Source: Comamonadaceae bacterium
GTDB lineage: Bacteria; Pseudomonadota; Gammaproteobacteria; Burkholderiales; Burkholderiaceae_C
Assembly: GCA_947454955.1 (NCBI GenBank)
Contig: CANGLW010000002.1
Span: 112,974 to 176,973 of the forward strand
Length of the DNA stretch: 64,000 nucleotides
Direction: 5' to 3'
Position 1 is the first letter of the stretch. The number at the start of each line of letters is the position of its first letter. Of this stretch, positions 6,292 through 17,182 are shown piece after piece. A program made the translations under genes and the position numbers. A model generated the notes under the pieces. The model searched no databases. It was not told the DNA's origin and was given only the letters and a program-made list of their open reading frames with translations.

Positions 6292-7539
6292 TTAGATGAC
6301 CTTGCTGGCGCGCAGATCTTCAATTTGCTCGGTGGTGTAACCCAACTGTTGCAACACCTCCACCGTGTGTTCACCCAGTAGGGGCGAGCGGGTGACTTCG
6401 GTGATGCTGTCCGAGAGTTTGATGGGGTTGCCAACCGTGAGGTACTTGCCACGGGTGGGGTGGTCCACTTCCACCACGGTGCCTGTTTCACGCAGCGACT
6501 GGTCTTCGGCGATTTCTTTCATCGACAAAATCGGGCCGCAAGGAATGTCGTACTGGTTGAGGATGTCCATGGCCTCGAACTTGGTCTTGGTCTTGGTCCA
6601 CTCTTCAATGCGCGCGAAGATCGACTTGAGGTGGGGCAAACGCGCAGCCGGTGTGGCGTAATGCGGGTCGGTGATCCAGCTCTCTTCGTCGATGATTTTG
6701 CAAATGGCTGGCCACACGGCGGCCTGGGTGATGAAGTAAATGTAGGCGTTGGGGTCTTTCTGCCAGCCTTTGCACTTCAAGATCCAGCCAGGTTGGCCGC
6801 CGCCTGAGGCGTTGCCCGCGCGGGGCACCGACTCGCCAAACTCCATGTCGGGGTACTGGGGGTACTCGGTGAGTTCACCCACGCGCTCCAGGCGCTGTTG
6901 GTCACGCAGTTTCACGCGGCACAGGTTGAGCACCGCGTCTTGCATGGCGGCCAGCACCTTTTGGCCACGGCCGGTTTTTTCGCGCTGGAACAGGGCGGTC
7001 ACAATGCCCAGGGCCAGGTGCAAGCCCGTGCCCGAGTCACCAATTTGCGCGCCGGTCACCACCGGTGGGCCGTCGTCAAAACCGGTGGTTGATGCAGCAC
7101 CTCCTGCGCACTGCGCCACGTTCTCGTACACCTTGCAGTCCACATAAGGGCCAGGGCCAAAGCCTTTGACCGAGGCCAGGATCATGCGGGGGTTGATCTC
7201 TTGGATTTTTTCCCAGGAAAAGCCCATGCGGTCCAGGGCGCCTGGCGCGAAGTTTTCCACCATCACATCGCACTCTTGGATGAGCTTGACCAGCACCGCT
7301 TTGCCCTTGGGGTCTTTGGTGTTGATGGTCACCGAGCGCTTGTTGTGGTTGAGCATGGTGAAGTACAAGCTGTCCACACCGGGAATGTCACGCAGCTGGC
7401 CGCGTGTGGCGTCGCCTTCGCCGGCTTTTTCCACCTTGATCACATCCGCGCCAAACCAGGCCAGCAACTGGGTGCAGGTCGGTCCGGACTGGACGTGGGT
7501 GAAGTCCAAAATCTTCACGCCATCGAGGGCTTTGCTCAT
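6292..7539 (-). CDS. frc: Formyl-CoA:oxalate CoA-transferase-like (CaiB/BaiF family), copy 1
   Basis: [29 protein letters not shown]; catalytic-type Asp in [24 protein letters not shown] loop. Start corrected to MSKALDG. Confidence 0.88.
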
Positions 7540-7683
7540 GTGAATACTCCTGAAGTTTAAAAAACCGGGGCAGTCGCCAAGGCGACGCAATGCCAAGCAT
7601 TGTAGATAGCTTGGCTGACAGCCGGGATGGATTCTTAGATTCAGGCCCCCAAACGGGGCAGGCAGGGGCTTGCAGCGGGGTTT

Positions 7684-8130
7684 TTAGCTGGGCGAACCGT
7701 TGTTTTTCACAGCGGCTTCCAACTCGGCCATGCGTTTTTTCAGCGCACGGTCTTCGGCAAATCTTGCCGTCTCGTTGCGGATGACCGCAGCCACCCCGGT
7801 CACCTCGCCAGCTGGGTCCTTGAGCATGGCCACGGTGAAGGCGATCGACATGTTCTCGCCGGCCTTGTTGACGGCTGGCACGCGCAGCACATCGTTGCCG
7901 TAACGGGTGGTGCCGGTTTCCATGGAATGGGCGTAGCCATCGTGGTGGCGGGAGCGCAGCCGCTCGGGGGTGATGAGGTTGAGGGTCTGGCCCAGGGCTT
8001 CGTCCTCGGTGTAGCCAAACATGCGCTGCGCGCCCGGGTTCCACAGGGTGATCAGGCCGGCGCGGTCACACACGATCACCGCATCGCCAATGGCGGCCAC
8101 CAGGTCTTGGGTATCAATTTGGGTTTTCAT
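7684..8130 (-). CDS. Stand-alone PAS-domain protein
   Basis: DAVIVCDRAGLITLWNPGAQRMFGYTEDEALGQ is a PAS motif; there is no attached effector domain. Start corrected to MKTQIDTQ. Confidence 0.85.
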   Translation of the reverse strand: MKTQIDTQDLVAAIGDAVIVCDRAGLITLWNPGAQRMFGYTEDEALGQTLNLITPERLRSRHHDGYAHSMETGTTRYGNDVLRVPAVNKAGENMSIAFTVAMLKDPAGEVTGVAAVIRNETARFAEDRALKKRMAELEAAVKNNGSPS

Positions 8131-8140
8131 GGTGCTCCTT

Positions 8141-8157
8141 GCTATCTTAACGATAGC
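8141..8157. repeat. 17-bp palindromic element GCTATCTTAACGATAGC
   Basis: Matches GCTA-N9-TAGC; upstream of the PAS gene. Confidence 0.75.
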
Positions 8158-8163
8158 ACCCAA

Positions 8164-8215: not shown

Positions 8216-9487
8216 TTAGACGGCCTTGGAAGCGTGCATGGCAGCAATTTGCTCCTTGCTGTAGCCCAACTCGGCCAAGACCTCGTCGGTGTGCTGGCCC
8301 AGCAGTGGCGAGGCAGTGACTTCAGGCTTGAGGTCCGAGAACTTGATGGGGCTGCCGATGGTGAAGTAGCTGCCGCGCACAGGGTGGGGCACTTCCACAA
8401 TCGAGCCGCTCTTGCGCAGGGACTCGTCACGCAACAGTTCTTTCATGGACAAGACCGGCGCGCAAGGGATGTCGAACTTGCGGAAGATGTCCACGGCTTC
8501 GAACTTGGTCTTGTCTTTGATGAAGTCCTCGATGGTGGCGAAGATGTCCATGATGTGTGGCTGACGGCCTTTAGGCGTGTTGTAAGCCGGGTCGTTTTTC
8601 CACTCGGGTTTGCCCAAGGCGTCGCAAATTGGCTCCCAGGCGTGGCCTTGCACGGTGAAATAAATGTAGGCGTTGGGGTCGGTCTCCCAGCCCTTGCATT
8701 TCAGAATCCAGCCGGGCTGACCGCCACCGCCGGCATTACCGCCACGGGGGGTGACCTTGTCGGCGAAGGCTTCCATTTCATGCGGGTACTGGGGGTACTC
8801 TTCCAGGTAGCCGATGCGCTCCAGGCGCTGTTGGTCGCGCATTTTCACGCGGCACAGGTTGAGCACCGCGTCTTGCATGGATACAGCGACTTTCTGGCCC
8901 TTGCCGGTTTGCTGGCGGCCGATGATGGCCGTCAAAATGCCAATGGCCAGGTGCATGCCGGTGTTGGAGTCGCCCAAGGCTGCGGCAGAGATGGTGGGCT
9001 CGGAATGCTCGCCTTTCCACCAGCCGGTGGTGGAAGCCGAGCCACCAGCGCACTGCGCGACGTTTTCGTAGACCTTGAGGTCCTCGTAGTGGTGACCTTC
9101 GCTGAAGCCCTTGACCGAGGCCAGGATCATGCCAGGGTTGAGCTTTTGGATGTATTCCCAGGTGAAGCCCATGCGGTCCAGCGCGCCGGGGCCGAAGTTC
9201 TCGACCATCACGTCAGACTCTTTGATGAGCTTTTCCAACACGGCTTTGCCCTCGGGGTTCTTGGTGTCCAGGGTCAGCGAGCGCTTGTTGCTGTTGAGCA
9301 TGGTGAAGTACAGCGCGTCAGCTTCGGGGATGTCGCGCAGCTGGCTGCGGGTCACATCGCCAGCGCCGGGACGCTCGACCTTGATCACATCCGCGCCGAA
9401 CCAGGCCAGCAGCTGGGTACAGGCGGGGCCGGCTTGCACGTGGGTGAAGTCGATGATTTTGATGCCACTCAGGGGTTTGTTGCTCAT
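8216..9487 (-). CDS. frc: Formyl-CoA:oxalate CoA-transferase, copy 2
   Basis: [57 protein letters not shown] loop. Next to oxc. Confidence 0.92.
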
Positions 9488-9510: not shown

Positions 9511-11229
9511 TTATTTCTTGGCGGTTTTAGGATTCAGGCTGGTGATGCGGCCGCTCTCGGTGCCAGCGGTCTCGTCAATCACCGCGTTGATCAGCGTGGG
9601 TTGGCGGCTGCGGATGGCTTCTTCCATGGCGGCGCGCAATTCAGCAGGGTTGCTGGCGTTCACACCCACACCGCCAAAGGCTTGCATGAGCATGTCGTAG
9701 CGCGCACCTTTGACGAACACGGTGGGGGCCACATCGGGGCCGCCGGTGGGGTTGACGTCGGTGCCGCGGTACACGCCGTTGTTGTTCATGATGACCACGC
9801 ACACCGGCAGCTTGTAGCGGCAGATGGTCTCGACTTCCATGCCTGAGAAGCCAAAGGCGCTGTCGCCTTCGATGGCAATGACTTGCTGGCCGGTTTCCAC
9901 CGCAGCAGCCACCGAGAAGCCCATGCCGATGCCCATGATGCCCCAGGTGCCCACGTCCAAGCGCTTACGCGGCTTGTACATGTCCACGATGCTGCGGGTG
10001 AAGTCCAGCGCGTTGGCGCCTTCGTTGACCAAAATCGCATCGGGGTTGGCCTTGATGATGTCGCGCACCACGTTCAGGGCGCTGTGGAAGTTCATTGGCA
10101 CGGGGTCTTTGGCCAGGGTCTCGGCCATCTTGGCCACGTTCTTGGTCTTGCGCTCATTGATCGCATCGAGCCACTCGGCTGGCGGCTTGGCCCAGCCTTT
10201 ATTCACATGCTCGAGCAGGGCAGACACGCACGAACCAATGTCGCCCACCAGCGGGGCGTCAATGCGCACATTGCTGTCCATCTCTTGGGCCGAGATGTCG
10301 ATCTGCACAAACTTCTGACCACCCCAGGCTTTGGCATCTTTGCCGCCCCAGGTTTTGCCCTTGCCGTGCGAAAGCAGCCAGTTCAAACGTGCACCGATCA
10401 TCAGCACCACATCGGCCTCAGGCAGCACATACGAGCGTGCAGCCGCGGCTGATTGGTCATGGGTGTCGGGCAGCAAACCTTTGGCCATGGACATGGGCAA
10501 ATAAGGAATGCCGGTTTTTTCCACCAGGGCGCGGATGTCGTCGTCCGCACGGGCGTAAGCCGCGCCTTTGCCCAGCAAAATCAAAGGCTTCTTCGCGCCC
10601 TTGAGCAGGTCCACCGCGCGTTGCACCGCATCGGCTGCAGGGATCTGGCGGGGGGCTGCGTCCACCACCTGGATGAGCGAGTCTTTGCCAGCCTGCGCGT
10701 CCATGGTTTGGCTAAAGAGCTTGGCAGGCAGGTCCAGGTACACACCACCGGGGCGACCCGACACCGCAGCACGGATGGCGCGCGCAATGCCCACACCAAT
10801 GTCTTCAGCGTGCAGCACGCGAAACGCTGCCTTACACAGGGGCTTGGCAATGGCCAGCTGGTCCATCTCTTCATAGTCACCTTGCTGCAGGTCCACAATC
10901 TCGCGCTCGCTGGAGCCGCTGATGAGGATCATGGGGAAGCAGTTGGTGGTGGCGTTGGTCAGGGCTGTGAGGCCATTCAAAAAGCCAGGGGCAGACACGG
11001 TCAGGCAGATGCCAGGCTTTTGCGTCAAAAAGCCGGCGATGGCGGCGGCGTTGCCAGCATGTTGCTCATGGCGGAAAGAAATCACGCGCATGCCTTCTGC
11101 CTGGGCCATGCGGGTCAGGTCGGTGATGGGGATACCAGGCAGACCGTAGATGGTGTTGATGCCATTGAGTTTGAGGGCATCAATGACCAGGTGAAAGCCG
11201 TCGGTCGTGGGGGAGGTGGTGTCTGTCAT
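9511..11229 (-). CDS. oxc: Oxalyl-CoA decarboxylase
   Basis: TPP-dependent decarboxylase ([62 protein letters not shown]). Adjacent to frc. Confidence 0.95.
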
Positions 11230-11363: not shown

Positions 11364-11377
11364 TTGACCCTGGTCAA
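11364..11377. promoter_or_regulatory. Candidate Crp/Fnr-type operator TTGACCCTGGTCAA
   Basis: Palindrome ATTGACC-CT-GGTCAAT (16 bp at 11363-11378) between divergent oxc and the Crp/Fnr gene. Confidence 0.7.
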
Positions 11378-11431: not shown

Positions 11432-12040
11432 ATGTCCAGCATTGCCAACCATTCTGAGAAAAACATCATTCGCGTTCAGCTGCGGCAGAACGTGGTGCTC
11501 AAAAGTTTGTCTCAGGAAGAACATGCCGAGTTGGAAGGTTTGTTGCAGGTGGTGGAGTGCCAAAAAGGCGACTACCTCTTACATCAGGGCGTGCACGAGA
11601 TGGAGCAGTACTTCATCTTGGACGGGATCCTCAAGCGCATGGTGACCAACCAGCAGGCCAAGGAAATGATTCTGCGGTTTGCGGACGAACGCGACATGGA
11701 GACCAGTTATGCCGCATGGTGCTTGCGCACGCCCACGCCGTACAGCATTTTGTCGGTTACCAAAGCGCGTGTGGTCAAGCTGCCCATGCCACAGTGGATC
11801 TCGTTCATGGACCGGCACCCCGAGGTTAAAAAAACCTTCGAGTTCCAGGTGATGAACTTGATGAGTGAGATCATGGGCCACACCATCACTTTGCATTTGC
11901 TTGACGCGCCAGGTCGGGTCCAGCGTTTCATCCGCAAGCAACCGGATTTGTTCGAGCGCATCCCGAAAAAAGAGCTGGCCTCGTACCTGAATTTGTCAGC
12001 GGAAACATTGAGTCGACTCAAGCAGCGCGGCAAGATCTGA
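11432..12040 (+). CDS. Crp/Fnr-family transcriptional regulator
   Basis: cNMP-binding-like N-terminus (CQKGDYLLHQGVHEMEQYFILDGILKR) and C-terminal HTH (IPKKELASYLNLSAETLSRLKQRGKI). Confidence 0.9.
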   Translation: MSSIANHSEKNIIRVQLRQNVVLKSLSQEEHAELEGLLQVVECQKGDYLLHQGVHEMEQYFILDGILKRMVTNQQAKEMILRFADERDMETSYAAWCLRTPTPYSILSVTKARVVKLPMPQWISFMDRHPEVKKTFEFQVMNLMSEIMGHTITLHLLDAPGRVQRFIRKQPDLFERIPKKELASYLNLSAETLSRLKQRGKI

Positions 12041-12874
12041 TCAGGTCTTGGAGTAGGTGAACAAGCGGGTTGAGGTCATCAAGCGCAATTCGTTGCGCAC
12101 CGAGGTCACGCCTTTGACTTCCGTCGCTACTTTTTCCACCTCGGTTTTTTCACGCTCGTTGATCACAATGCCGCGCAACAGTACGTTGCCGTTTTCGGCT
12201 TCGATGGTGATGTTGATCTCGGCGGTGGCCTCATGGTCTTTGAGCTTGGCACGCACGCGTGCAGCCAGCGTCATGTTGTTCAAAAGCTTGCGTGACTCTT
12301 CGGTCTCTTGAAACTCGGGTCGCTGTGTGAGCGCCCTGATTTGTTCCACGCAGCTGTGCACCGACAAGCGGTCGGTGTTGAGCACCACGTCGTAGAGCAC
12401 CGGGTCACCCCAGGTCACGCCAAACTGCTGTTGCATGCGGCTGGCATGGGCATCGTCGCTTCGGCGAATTTCTGACTCGGCAAACTCGCGGTCATCGGTT
12501 TCCAGGTGGTTCATCAGCCACTCCACCCGCTTGCTCATCGAACGGGTGATGCGCACACACACCACATGCGGCACAGGGCGCAACAAACACGTGGCCCCCC
12601 AGCCGCGTATGACCACATTGCCTTGGTCGGCCTGGGTGAACACCTCTTCGGCCGAATACAAAGCGAAGCGGTCTTTGTCGTTTTTCACGCGCTCAATCAG
12701 CGTGGCCTTGCCTTCGCGCAGACGGCTGATGACGCTGGTGGAGACGTGCAGTTTGCCAGCGAGGTGGTCCACCACCTCGTGGCGCATGACACTGAGGTTC
12801 ATGCTGGCGGCGAGTTCAATGGCCACGTCTTTGGCCAAAGAACCCATCTCTTGCGTCATGGCGATGATGGGCAT
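12041..12874 (-). CDS. Cytidylate-kinase-like domain fused to a C-terminal BON domain
   Basis: MPIIAMTQEMGSLAKDVAIELA resembles the Cytidylate_kin2 N-terminus; C-terminal ARVRAKLKDHEATAEINITIEAENGNVLLRGIVINEREKTEVEKVATEVKGVTSVRNEL is BON-like. Confidence 0.75.
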   Translation of the reverse strand: MPIIAMTQEMGSLAKDVAIELAASMNLSVMRHEVVDHLAGKLHVSTSVISRLREGKATLIERVKNDKDRFALYSAEEVFTQADQGNVVIRGWGATCLLRPVPHVVCVRITRSMSKRVEWLMNHLETDDREFAESEIRRSDDAHASRMQQQFGVTWGDPVLYDVVLNTDRLSVHSCVEQIRALTQRPEFQETEESRKLLNNMTLAARVRAKLKDHEATAEINITIEAENGNVLLRGIVINEREKTEVEKVATEVKGVTSVRNELRLMTSTRLFTYSKT

Positions 12875-12884
12875 GGTGATTCCT

Positions 12885-14414
12885 TCAGTCCACAGGACGC
12901 TCGGCAGCGAACTCGTCTTGCTTGGGCGCTTTGATCAAGGCCAGTGCTTTGGAAATCACAGGCCAGAGCAAGAGCACCAGGGCCAGTGCGGTGATGGAAC
13001 CCACCAGGCCGTTGGAGAACATGATGGACAAATCACCTTGGCTCACCAGCATGGCTTGGCGGAACGAGTCCTCAGCCTTGTCGCCCAAGACCAGCGCAAG
13101 AACCAAGGGTGCGAGCGGGTAGTCGAGCTTCTTGAACAAATAACCCACGATGCCAAAGAGCAGCATGAACCAAATGTCGAGCATGGCGTTGTGCACGGTG
13201 TACGCGCCAATCGCACAGATCACGATGATCACCGGCGCGATGATGGAGAAGGGAATGCGCAAGATGGAGGCGAACAGCGGTACGGTGGTGAGCACCACAA
13301 TCAGGCCAGCCAGGTTGCCCAGGTACATGCTGGCAATCAGGCCCCAGACAAAGTCCTTTTGCTCCACAAACAGGAGCGGGCCGGGCTGCAAGCCCCAAAT
13401 CAGGAGGCCACCCAAAAGCACCGCAGCGGTGGGCGAGCCCGGAATGCCCAGGGCCAACATGGGCAGCAAAGCGCTGGTGCCTGCAGCGTGCGCAGCAGTC
13501 TCAGGGGCCACCACGCCTTCAAGCTGACCGGTGCCAAACTTGGCGCCGTTCTTCGACATTTTCTTGGCCAGGCCGTAGCTCATGAACGAGGCCGGTGTGG
13601 CACCACCCGGGGTGATGCCCATCCAAATGCCAATGAGCGAGCTGCGGATAGAGGTGACCCAGTACTGGGGCAGCTTCTTCCAGGTCTCAAACACCACCTT
13701 GGGGTTGATGGCCGCGCTCTTGCCCGAGAAGGCCAAGCCTTCTTCCATCGACAACAAAATTTCACCGATGCCAAATAGGCCAATCACCGCGATCAGGAAG
13801 TCAAAACCGCGCAGCAATTCAGTGAAGCCGAAGGTCAAGCGCAACTGACCGGTCACCGTGTCCATGCCCACCGCAGCCAAGGCAAAACCGATGGCCATGG
13901 ATGCCAGGATCTTGAAGGGAGAGCCTTTGCCCATGCCCACAAACGAGCAGAAGGTGAGCAGGTAGACCGAGAAGAATTCCGGTGGCCCGAATTTCAGCGC
14001 GAATTTCGCCACCAGAGGAGCCAAGAAAGTGATCATCACCACCGCCACAAAGGCGCCGATGAAGGACGATGTGAAAGCACCCGTCAGTGCTTCACCCGCA
14101 CGGCCTTGTTGCGCCATGGGAAAGCCATCAAACGTGGTGGCCACCGACCAGGGCTCACCCGGGATGTTGAACAGCACCGAGGTGATGGCACCACCAAACA
14201 GCGCGCCCCAGTAAATGCACGAGAGCATGATGATGGCTGAGGTCGGGTTCATGCTGAAGGTCAGCGGCAGCAGAATAGCCACACCGTTGGCGCCACCCAA
14301 GCCGGGCAACACGCCAATGAGCACGCCCAAAATGATGCCGACCAACATCAGCAAGATGTTCATCGGCGTGAGGATCACGGCAAAGCCTTGAAACAGTGCG
14401 TTGATTTCTTCCAT
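12885..14414 (-). CDS. tctA: Tripartite tricarboxylate transporter, large membrane subunit TctA
   Basis: Large hydrophobic protein with GVLPGLGGANGVAILLPLTF, ITSVLFNIPGEP, GIPGSPTAAVLLGGL. Confidence 0.93.
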   Translation of the reverse strand: MEEINALFQGFAVILTPMNILLMLVGIILGVLIGVLPGLGGANGVAILLPLTFSMNPTSAIIMLSCIYWGALFGGAITSVLFNIPGEPWSVATTFDGFPMAQQGRAGEALTGAFTSSFIGAFVAVVMITFLAPLVAKFALKFGPPEFFSVYLLTFCSFVGMGKGSPFKILASMAIGFALAAVGMDTVTGQLRLTFGFTELLRGFDFLIAVIGLFGIGEILLSMEEGLAFSGKSAAINPKVVFETWKKLPQYWVTSIRSSLIGIWMGITPGGATPASFMSYGLAKKMSKNGAKFGTGQLEGVVAPETAAHAAGTSALLPMLALGIPGSPTAAVLLGGLLIWGLQPGPLLFVEQKDFVWGLIASMYLGNLAGLIVVLTTVPLFASILRIPFSIIAPVIIVICAIGAYTVHNAMLDIWFMLLFGIVGYLFKKLDYPLAPLVLALVLGDKAEDSFRQAMLVSQGDLSIMFSNGLVGSITALALVLLLWPVISKALALIKAPKQDEFAAERPVD

Positions 14415-14441: not shown

Positions 14442-14948
14442 TCAGAAGCCCAGTGGGCTGAGCAGGTCAAATTCGCCTTTGAACAAAGGCACTTTGAACC
14501 AGACCTCAAACATCATGAAAAACACCACGTTGACGCTCAGTCCGACCGCCAAGCTTTTGACCCATGAGTACTTGCCCAGAATCACCATGAACAGGGTGAT
14601 GTACAGCGCGGAGGCCACATAAATACCGATGAGCTGAATGGCCAGCACATACACCGCAGCAGGTAACAGCACCGAGAACACTCGGCCGAGTTGTTCGCGG
14701 TCCACGAACACCTCGGTGTTCTTTTTCTTGCCAAACAGCGCTTGAAAGAAAATGCCTGCGCCTGAGATGGTCAAGATCAGGCCGATGTAGAAGGGAAAGT
14801 AACCCGCGCCCGGGCCGTCGCTGGTCCATTCATGTCCCAGCTTGGAGCTGCCAAACAGCACCACACCACCCAGCACCATCACCAGCAGTGCGGTGACTGC
14901 ATCCACCACATGGGTGCCCACGCCGCCGTTCTCTTCTTCTGAACTCAT
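14442..14948 (-). CDS. tctB: Tripartite tricarboxylate transporter, small membrane subunit TctB
   Basis: Four-TM small protein between tctA and tctC; GAGYFPFYIGLIL motif. Confidence 0.88.
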   Translation of the reverse strand: MSSEEENGGVGTHVVDAVTALLVMVLGGVVLFGSSKLGHEWTSDGPGAGYFPFYIGLILTISGAGIFFQALFGKKKNTEVFVDREQLGRVFSVLLPAAVYVLAIQLIGIYVASALYITLFMVILGKYSWVKSLAVGLSVNVVFFMMFEVWFKVPLFKGEFDLLSPLGF

Positions 14949-15028: not shown

Positions 15029-16042
15029 TTACTTGGCCAAGAAGCCGGCTTCTTGCATCAAGGTGCGGTGTGCTTTTTCGGCCTCGGTGAGCCACTTCAC
15101 AAAGTCATCGCCCGACTTGAAGGAGGGGTTGAAAGCACCTTTTTCCATGTACTCTTTCCAGTCAGGGGTGGCGCGCACTTTGTTGAGCAGATCGAGGTAG
15201 TAAGCGGTTTGGTCTTTGGTCACGCCAGGCGCCATGAAGATGCCGCGCAGCATCACGTAGTCGGTGGGCACACCCGCTTCTTTGCAGGTGGGGATGTCGT
15301 ACCAAGACTGGGTGTCGGTGACCTTGGTTTTGTAGGGCATGCGCTCGTCGTCAAACACGCACAGCGCGCGCAGTTTGCCGGCACGCCACTGGGCCACGGC
15401 CTCAATGGGGTTGTTGACCGATGAGTCCACATGCTTGCCCACCAGCTGCACGGCCACTTCACCGCCGCCCTTGAAGGGGATGTAGATGAACTTGGTGCCC
15501 GTGGCTTTCTCCAGGCCCACGGTCAGAATTTGGTCCTCTTGCTTGGAGCCCGTGCCACCCATTTTCATTTTGCTTGGGCCTGCAGCCTTTGTCGCGGCAA
15601 TGTACTCAGCTGCGGTTTTGTAAGGCGCTTCAGCATTGGTCCACAACACAAACTGGTCCAGGGCCATCATGGCCACAGGGGTCATGTCTTTCCAGTTGAA
15701 TGGCACGCCGGTGGCCATCGGGGTGGTGAACAGGTTGGAGAGGGTGATGATGATTTTGTGCGGGTTGCCCTTGGCTTCTTTCACGTCCAAAAAGCCTTCA
15801 GCACCTGCACCGCCGGATTTGTTCACGACGATCATCGACTCCTTCATGAGCTTGTGCTTGACGATGATGCCCTGGATCAAACGTGCCATTTGGTCGGCAC
15901 CGCCGCCGGTACCAGCAGGCACCACAAATTCCACAGGTTTGGTGGGTTCCCAAGCTGCAGCGGGTGCGGTGCTGAGTAAACCTAGGCTGGCCACAGCGGA
16001 CATGGCGCAGGCCATCCAATGCTTGCGTGTGAGGTGTTTCAT
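15029..16042 (-). CDS. tctC: Tripartite tricarboxylate transporter, periplasmic binding protein TctC
   Basis: Signal peptide, then WEPTKPVEFVVPAGTGGGADQMAR and PFKGGGEVAVQLVGKHVD. Start corrected to MKHLTRK. Confidence 0.92.
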   Translation of the reverse strand: MKHLTRKHWMACAMSAVASLGLLSTAPAAAWEPTKPVEFVVPAGTGGGADQMARLIQGIIVKHKLMKESMIVVNKSGGAGAEGFLDVKEAKGNPHKIIITLSNLFTTPMATGVPFNWKDMTPVAMMALDQFVLWTNAEAPYKTAAEYIAATKAAGPSKMKMGGTGSKQEDQILTVGLEKATGTKFIYIPFKGGGEVAVQLVGKHVDSSVNNPIEAVAQWRAGKLRALCVFDDERMPYKTKVTDTQSWYDIPTCKEAGVPTDYVMLRGIFMAPGVTKDQTAYYLDLLNKVRATPDWKEYMEKGAFNPSFKSGDDFVKWLTEAEKAHRTLMQEAGFLAK

Positions 16043-16127
16043 CGTCTGTCTCCTATGGTTCATGTTGCCTCAGCCTTCGTATGCTGGGTCGTGCATATGA
16101 TGATTTGGTAAAAATCATGAAACCCTA

Positions 16128-16141
16128 TTGACTGCGGTCAA
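16128..16141. promoter_or_regulatory. Candidate operator TTGACTGCGGTCAA upstream of tctC
   Basis: TTGAC-N4-GTCAA, same arms and spacing as 11364-11377. Confidence 0.6.
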
Positions 16142-16264: not shown

Positions 16265-17182
16265 TCAGGTCTGTGACCAGCCCTGGGCTTGTGCGAATTC
16301 TGCAGCACCCATTTTCTTGCCGCCTTGAGGTTTGAGCTTCAAGATCTCGATCATGCCGCCCTGGGCATTCACAAAAATTGACTCGGCAGTGACGCGGGCC
16401 ACTTCACCGGGTTTGCCTTTCACATCGGCAAACTTGCGGGCCACATGCTTGCGGCAGTCATACACCGACACGGTGTGCCCGCCAATCTCACCCCAAGCGC
16501 CAGGGGCAGGGTTGCAGGCGCGAATCAGGTTGTAAACCTGGTCGACATGGTTGTGCCAGTTGATGCGCGACTCGGCCTCTTTCATCCAACCTTCATAGCT
16601 GGCTTGCGATTCGTCTTGCGTGATTTCCTGGTGACGGCCAGCCACCACCAGATCGGCCGCTTCCATCAGGGCTTGCACACCCAGAGGGAACAGCGAGTTG
16701 AAATACACCTCGCCCAAGGTGTCATCAGGCCCGATGGGGCAGGTTTTTTGCAGGATGACGGGGCCTTCGTCCAGGCCGTCGGTGGGGCGGAAGATGGTCA
16801 GACCGGTTTGTGTGTCGCCACGTGCAATCGGCCAGTTGATGGACGAGGGGCCGCGGTACTTGGGCAAGAGGGACGGGTGGTACTGGATGGTGCCGTGCTT
16901 GGGGATGTGCACCAGCGACTGCGGCACAAACTGCAGCACATAGGCCATCACACCAATGTCGGCGTTGAGTGAACGCATGGCGGCTTCAGCGTCTTCGCCT
17001 TTGAGGCTGGCGAACTGAAACACCTGCAGGCCTTTTTCGCGCGCAGCGGCCACCAGGGCATCAGGTTTTTCGCCCGGTTTTTCGGGCTTGCAAAACACAC
17101 CCACCACCTCGTCGCCGCGAGCCAAAAAGGCCTCGAGGGCGGCTTTGCCGAAATCTTGTTGACCGATGAAAGCAATGCGCAT
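16265..17182 (-). CDS. Stand-alone formyltransferase/hydrolase resembling the N-terminal domain of 10-formyl-THF dehydrogenase
   Basis: YHPSLLPKYRGPSSINWPI, TDGLDEGPVILQ, and C-terminal NPAPGAWGEIGGHTVSVYDC. Closer to the FDH hydrolase domain than to Fmt by motif. Confidence 0.8.
   Translation of the reverse strand: MRIAFIGQQDFGKAALEAFLARGDEVVGVFCKPEKPGEKPDALVAAAREKGLQVFQFASLKGEDAEAAMRSLNADIGVMAYVLQFVPQSLVHIPKHGTIQYHPSLLPKYRGPSSINWPIARGDTQTGLTIFRPTDGLDEGPVILQKTCPIGPDDTLGEVYFNSLFPLGVQALMEAADLVVAGRHQEITQDESQASYEGWMKEAESRINWHNHVDQVYNLIRACNPAPGAWGEIGGHTVSVYDCRKHVARKFADVKGKPGEVARVTAESIFVNAQGGMIEILKLKPQGGKKMGAAEFAQAQGWSQT

Follow-up and report, generated by a model that had tools for sequence, protein, structure and literature searches.

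A Cytidylate_kin2-BON fusion protein encoded after tctCBA as a candidate modulator of oxalate transport

At the end of a predicted tctCBA operon in the 64-kb window (the whole stretch of DNA analysed here), we characterized a gene encoding a Cytidylate_kin2 domain fused to a BON domain, referred to as KB, which sits between the transporter genes and an oxalate-catabolism gene set. From domain content, residue loss and gene context, we put at roughly one half the probability that KB, co-transcribed with tctCBA, serves as a cytosolic, probably non-catalytic ligand-binding accessory that modulates an oxalate transporter, a role like that of TeaD. The features on which this reading draws are as follows.

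12041-12874, minus strand: KB, Cytidylate_kin2-BON fusion, 277 aa, ATG start, final gene of the putative tctCBA operon (open reading frame and Pfam)
12371-12868, minus strand: Cytidylate_kin2 (NMP-kinase-like) domain, residues 3-168 (Pfam, 1.8e-27; Foldseek, 3hdt/3fdi)
12080-12271, minus strand: BON domain, residues 202-265 (Pfam, 1e-13)
12821-12856, minus strand: degenerate nucleotide loop TQEMGSLAKDVA, residues 7-18 (alignment; Gln8 and Ala14 replace the family-invariant Arg and Gly)
12599-12601, minus strand: Trp92 in place of the invariant Arg of the GRGA motif
12885-14414, minus strand: tctA, large membrane subunit (PF01970, 1.2e-149)
14442-14948, minus strand: tctB, small membrane subunit (PF07331, 7.1e-22)
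15029-16063, minus strand: tctC, periplasmic solute receptor (PF03401, 3.2e-30)
11432-12040, plus strand: CRP-like regulator, convergent with KB (cNMP_binding, 6.2e-8; HTH below cut-off)
9511-11229, minus strand: oxalyl-CoA decarboxylase, oxc (TIGR03254, 998 bits, cut-off 739)
8216-9487, minus strand: formyl-CoA transferase, frc, copy 1 (TIGR03253, 714 bits, cut-off 504)
6292-7596, minus strand: formyl-CoA transferase, frc, copy 2 (TIGR03253, 731 bits)
16128-16141, no strand: candidate operator preceding tctC, palindrome TTGACCGCAGTCAA (motif scan)
11364-11377, no strand: candidate operator in the intergenic region of the CRP-like gene and oxc, palindrome TTGACCAGGGTCAA (motif scan)

Domains, fold and gene neighbourhood of KB

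Profile searches bore out the first-pass annotation of this DNA, which had read the N-terminal half as Cytidylate_kin2-like and the C-terminal part as a BON domain: PF13189 matched with E = 1.8e-27 (97.1 bits against a cut-off of 28) and PF04972 with E = 1e-13 (51.8 bits against a cut-off of 27), and these were the sole Pfam domains above cut-off in KB. Both recurred in all 44 KB homologues when the aligned set was checked by profile. The fold was likewise confirmed by the AlphaFold and Foldseek comparison that the annotation had proposed, with an AlphaFold2 model from 45 aligned sequences reaching a mean pLDDT of 87.3 and a pTM of 0.81, and with 3hdt and 3fdi, which also match the Cytidylate_kin2 family by sequence profile, as its top PDB matches; shikimate and CMP kinases came next and the dual-BON protein DolP lower. 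Estimates of dN/dS were about 0.06-0.13 for the kinase domain and 0.13-0.31 for BON, several dS values being near saturation, and by this measure purifying selection acts on both domains.

We found no membrane-spanning stretch in KB (highest 19-residue Kyte-Doolittle mean 1.03), and no signal peptide was apparent, as had been noted before, the first kinase beta strand of the model occupying residues 3-7. Because there is no membrane stretch and the first kinase strand starts at residue 3, KB is expected to be a soluble cytosolic protein. It has the BON domain in common with OsmY, DolP and Kbp, and the lack of a signal sequence in common with Kbp, but differs from all three in that its BON domain is fused to a kinase-like domain. 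Known BON ligands are K+ in Kbp (PMC9481166) and anionic phospholipid in DolP (PMC7806268). A kinase-like combination is not named among the main clusters of BON architectures, of which CBS+CBS+BON is the nearest (PMC7806268), and the combination in KB is an addition to the known cytosolic BON fusions. A literature search with the terms used found no paper on Cytidylate_kin2, on Cytidylate_kin2 with BON, or on oxalate tripartite tricarboxylate transporters.

The KB start codon lies 10 bp after the end of tctA on the same strand, as the annotation had stated, with tctC and tctB preceding. Oxalate is broken down via oxalyl-CoA by two enzymes, oxalyl-CoA decarboxylase and formyl-CoA transferase, and since genes for both lie close by, the transporter most likely carries oxalate.

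Other features of the neighbourhood include a shared palindrome, TGATCA, formed by the stop codons of KB and the CRP-like gene (window positions 12038-12043, zero gap); a formyltransferase with Formyl_trans_N and _C domains upstream of tctC (16265-17182), which recurs near the oxalate locus in several relatives; and a small PAS-domain protein between the two frc genes (7684-8163), also found in several relatives. A scan of sigma-70 promoters and terminators performed at about chance level and was left out of account.

Distribution of KB and of loci that lack it

We surveyed three genome samples, comprising 201 genomes of the same family, 399 of the order Burkholderiales and 399 from across the phylum. 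A close KB homologue occurred in 13/201 same-family genomes and a homologue in 26/399 genomes of the order, while full-length matches in the phylum-wide sample came from the window genome and one same-family genome only; among the genomes sampled, full-length homologues were confined to the same order. No plasmid-borne copies were found. In the tree, KB formed a clade with 100/100 support and the canonical Cytidylate_kin2 proteins were placed outside it. Within KB, the 32 of 44 genes that lie directly 3' of tctA grouped as one clade (support 99/100), which fits a single recruitment of an existing gene into a tct operon. The tctA-KB gap, measured in 31 loci, had 29 usable values with a median of 16 bp and extremes of 1 and 98 bp, the values for L072 and L073 being excluded as script artefacts because the frames there appear to overlap.

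The tct-linked loci share a layout of tctCBA-KB, a convergent CRP-like gene, and oxc (or another ThDP enzyme) with frc, and they carry oxc and/or frc wherever the contig reaches far enough. In some of them oxc is replaced by a different ThDP enzyme, which accompanies a formyl-CoA transferase, so the transporter there may carry something other than oxalate. The 12 remaining KB genes occupy varied contexts, with a redoxin neighbour in five loci (four between redoxin and ffh) and the rest near chaperone, TctC or other genes; genome G330 carries one tct-linked and one non-tct copy. At L094 (7439-7990), reading by eye, an apparent response-regulator receiver domain comes after a Cytidylate_kin2 domain without a break in the open frame.

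A TctA search of the same 201 genomes recovered 12 more oxalate loci in which tctCBA, oxc and frc are laid out in the same way but KB is missing. The coupling to tctA, for which the annotation had suggested a survey of tctA neighbourhoods, thus does not extend to every oxalate locus. On the TctA tree, KB presence changed at least 6 times on well-supported branches, a pattern indicating repeated loss of KB from oxalate loci, or its relocation. KB is therefore dispensable and cannot play an essential part in transport, and the KB-less loci favour a modulator over a component of the transporter. In the six KB-less loci where we inspected the gap between tctA and the CRP-like gene, no KB-like replacement was present, and we rejected the idea of a substitute gene there; the gap held repeated sequence in one locus and short or unrelated frames in the others. 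By eye, the translation of one such gap (L162, 6034-7197) shows apparent repeats in several frames.

This distribution could also be read as that of a general cytosolic stress or envelope factor of the BON type, attached to the tct operon and having no direct effect on transport, an explanation we regard as somewhat unlikely. The varied housekeeping contexts of the non-tct relatives and the repeated loss from oxalate loci are in its favour, and the 12 relatives outside tct operons mean that KB may have a broader function, one that does not concern transport in particular. Yet all copies of the tct clade, in several families, remain next to tctA, and at position 8 the clade is marked by a substitution of its own; both points count against this explanation.

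Residue changes in the kinase-like site

We compared 44 KB proteins (32 tct-linked, 12 non-tct) with 22 canonical Cytidylate_kin2 members. At the pre-loop position 8, Arg is present in 22/22 canonical and 12/12 non-tct KB proteins and replaced by Q, H or M in 32/32 tct-linked ones, and loop position 14 is G in the same 22/22 and 12/12 and A in 20/32 tct-linked proteins. The Arg of GRGA, R in 22/22 canonical members, is W (W92) in 44/44 KB proteins, and the lid Arg, R in 21/22, is H (H143) in 32/44. At these conserved positions the window KB has Q8, A14, W92 and H143; it shares the fold of PF13189 (solved as 3fdi and 3hdt) and its profile match over residues 3-168, but has Trp for the GRGA Arg, His for the lid Arg, Gln for the pre-loop Arg and an extra C-terminal BON domain. 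Part of the arginine loss thus seems, on the alignment, to coincide with entry into the tct operon.

The annotation had remarked on a non-classical nucleotide loop. There is indeed no classical P-loop in TQEMGSLAKDVA, but the trait is not particular to KB: canonical Cytidylate_kin2 members also lack the Walker lysine, and the whole family seems to be without it. In hhalign, the family-invariant Gly fell at the Walker A lysine position in a weak alignment (probability 3%), and direct comparison of KB with the CMP-kinase profile was not significant. Since the loop is common to the whole Pfam family, what sets KB apart is that it has lost conserved arginines as well.

As for CMP kinase itself (cmk, PF02224), KB has a distant fold similarity to it (2h92 and 1cke in Foldseek) but no significant profile similarity, scoring 23 bits against the 102 of TIGR02173, with GSLAKD in its loop where Walker A reads GxxxxGK[ST]. 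We rejected KB as a replacement CMP kinase because the congener G015 carries both a separate cmk and KB. The window's own assembly shows no cmk and no full rpsA, while congeners have cmk; since the full rpsA is missing as well, the absence is probably explained by a gap in the assembly.

By profile KB belongs to the Cytidylate_kin2 superfamily, but it is a divergent branch of it and probably non-catalytic. Four residues, Glu33, Trp92, His103 and Arg116, are identical in all 44 KB proteins, which suggests a kept or altered binding site. The earlier proposal that KB could sense a ligand or a nucleotide agrees with the loss of conserved arginines from a modelled fold that is itself retained. These same residues, together with Lys15, could instead form the shifted active site of an active but unusual kinase that serves the oxalate pathway by acting on nucleotides or small molecules. 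We consider this doubtful. In its favour, the fold is well kept, the kinase domain evolves more slowly than the BON half and the Walker lysine is missing from canonical members as well, but KB has lost Arg8, Arg92 and Arg143, which hardly vary among canonical members, and the loop varies inside the tct clade (GSLAK, GSKGK, GTRGS, ATLGS).

A shared palindrome and a possible role in transporter regulation

The palindrome TTGACN4GTCAA occurred with at most one mismatch in 33/33 intergenic regions that separate the CRP-like gene from oxc, 27 of them with a perfect copy, and in 31/37 regions upstream of tctC, 22 with a perfect copy, counts in which the loci are related and the rows are not independent events. 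Dinucleotide shuffles reached this level in 0.6% and 2.6% of cases, respectively, and never with zero mismatches. Perfect copies number two in the 64-kb window (11364-11377 and 16128-16141) and seven in the genome. The palindrome is kept in many oxalate loci, whether they have KB or not, and loci without the CRP-like gene (L024, L068) are also without the palindrome. Its presence before both oxc and tctC ties KB to the oxalate regulon and supports a single regulon comprising tctCBA-KB and oxc-frc; the CRP-like protein encoded between them is probably the binder. KB could instead bind or titrate this CRP-like protein and so control transcription of the locus, not the transporter. In favour of this, the CRP-like gene converges with KB in most loci and the palindrome precedes both units, but we regard it as improbable: KB-less loci retain both the gene and the palindrome, and the CRP-like gene is missing from some loci with KB (L024, L067, L068). 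The annotation's picture of the fusion, its loop, its cytosolic character and its coupling to tctA has stood; the oxalate locus, the linkage across 32 homologues, the shared palindrome and the dispensability of KB had escaped it.

For the accessory role that we favour, the closest parallel is TeaD of the ectoine TRAP transporter TeaABC: teaD follows teaABC, and its deletion raises ectoine uptake with teaA mRNA unchanged, marking TeaD as an uptake modulator (PMC2964678). Both TeaD and KB are small cytosolic proteins encoded by the final gene of an operon for a binding-protein-dependent secondary transporter, and KB likewise directly follows a membrane subunit on the same strand, at a distance of 10 bp in the window and a median of 16 bp over the loci measured; a similar role is proposed for KB. 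They differ in family: TeaD is a universal stress protein (USP), whereas KB, which by Pfam is not, pairs an NMP-kinase fold with BON.

In the mechanism we propose, the tctCBA-KB operon and oxc-frc would be jointly controlled through TTGACN4GTCAA, probably by the CRP-like protein. The N-terminal domain would keep the NMP-kinase fold and most likely bind a nucleotide or CoA-type metabolite without phosphoryl transfer, a reading prompted by the loss of several family-conserved arginines. The BON domain might then relay the ligand signal to the membrane or to TctAB, with the outcome that oxalate uptake is tuned to metabolic state, much as the USP protein TeaD acts on TeaABC.

A more specific version, which we think unlikely, makes this pseudo-NMP-kinase-BON protein a post-translational gate on the tripartite tricarboxylate transporter, sensing a metabolite of the oxalate pathway, for example oxalyl-CoA or formyl-CoA, or else the nucleotide pool, and binding TctAB or the adjacent membrane. 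We rejected a KB-specific tail on TctA, as the full TctA C-terminus is retained in KB-less loci too, and so no co-evolving contact site is seen. If the gate were real, tripartite tricarboxylate transporters would have a cytosolic regulator of a new class.

To our knowledge, regulation of tripartite tricarboxylate transporters after their synthesis has been little studied. The locus offers a defined and dispensable candidate for a cytosolic partner, with natural presence/absence pairs among close relatives, a candidate substrate in oxalate and a candidate operator, and the question of how these transporters are regulated therefore becomes directly testable.
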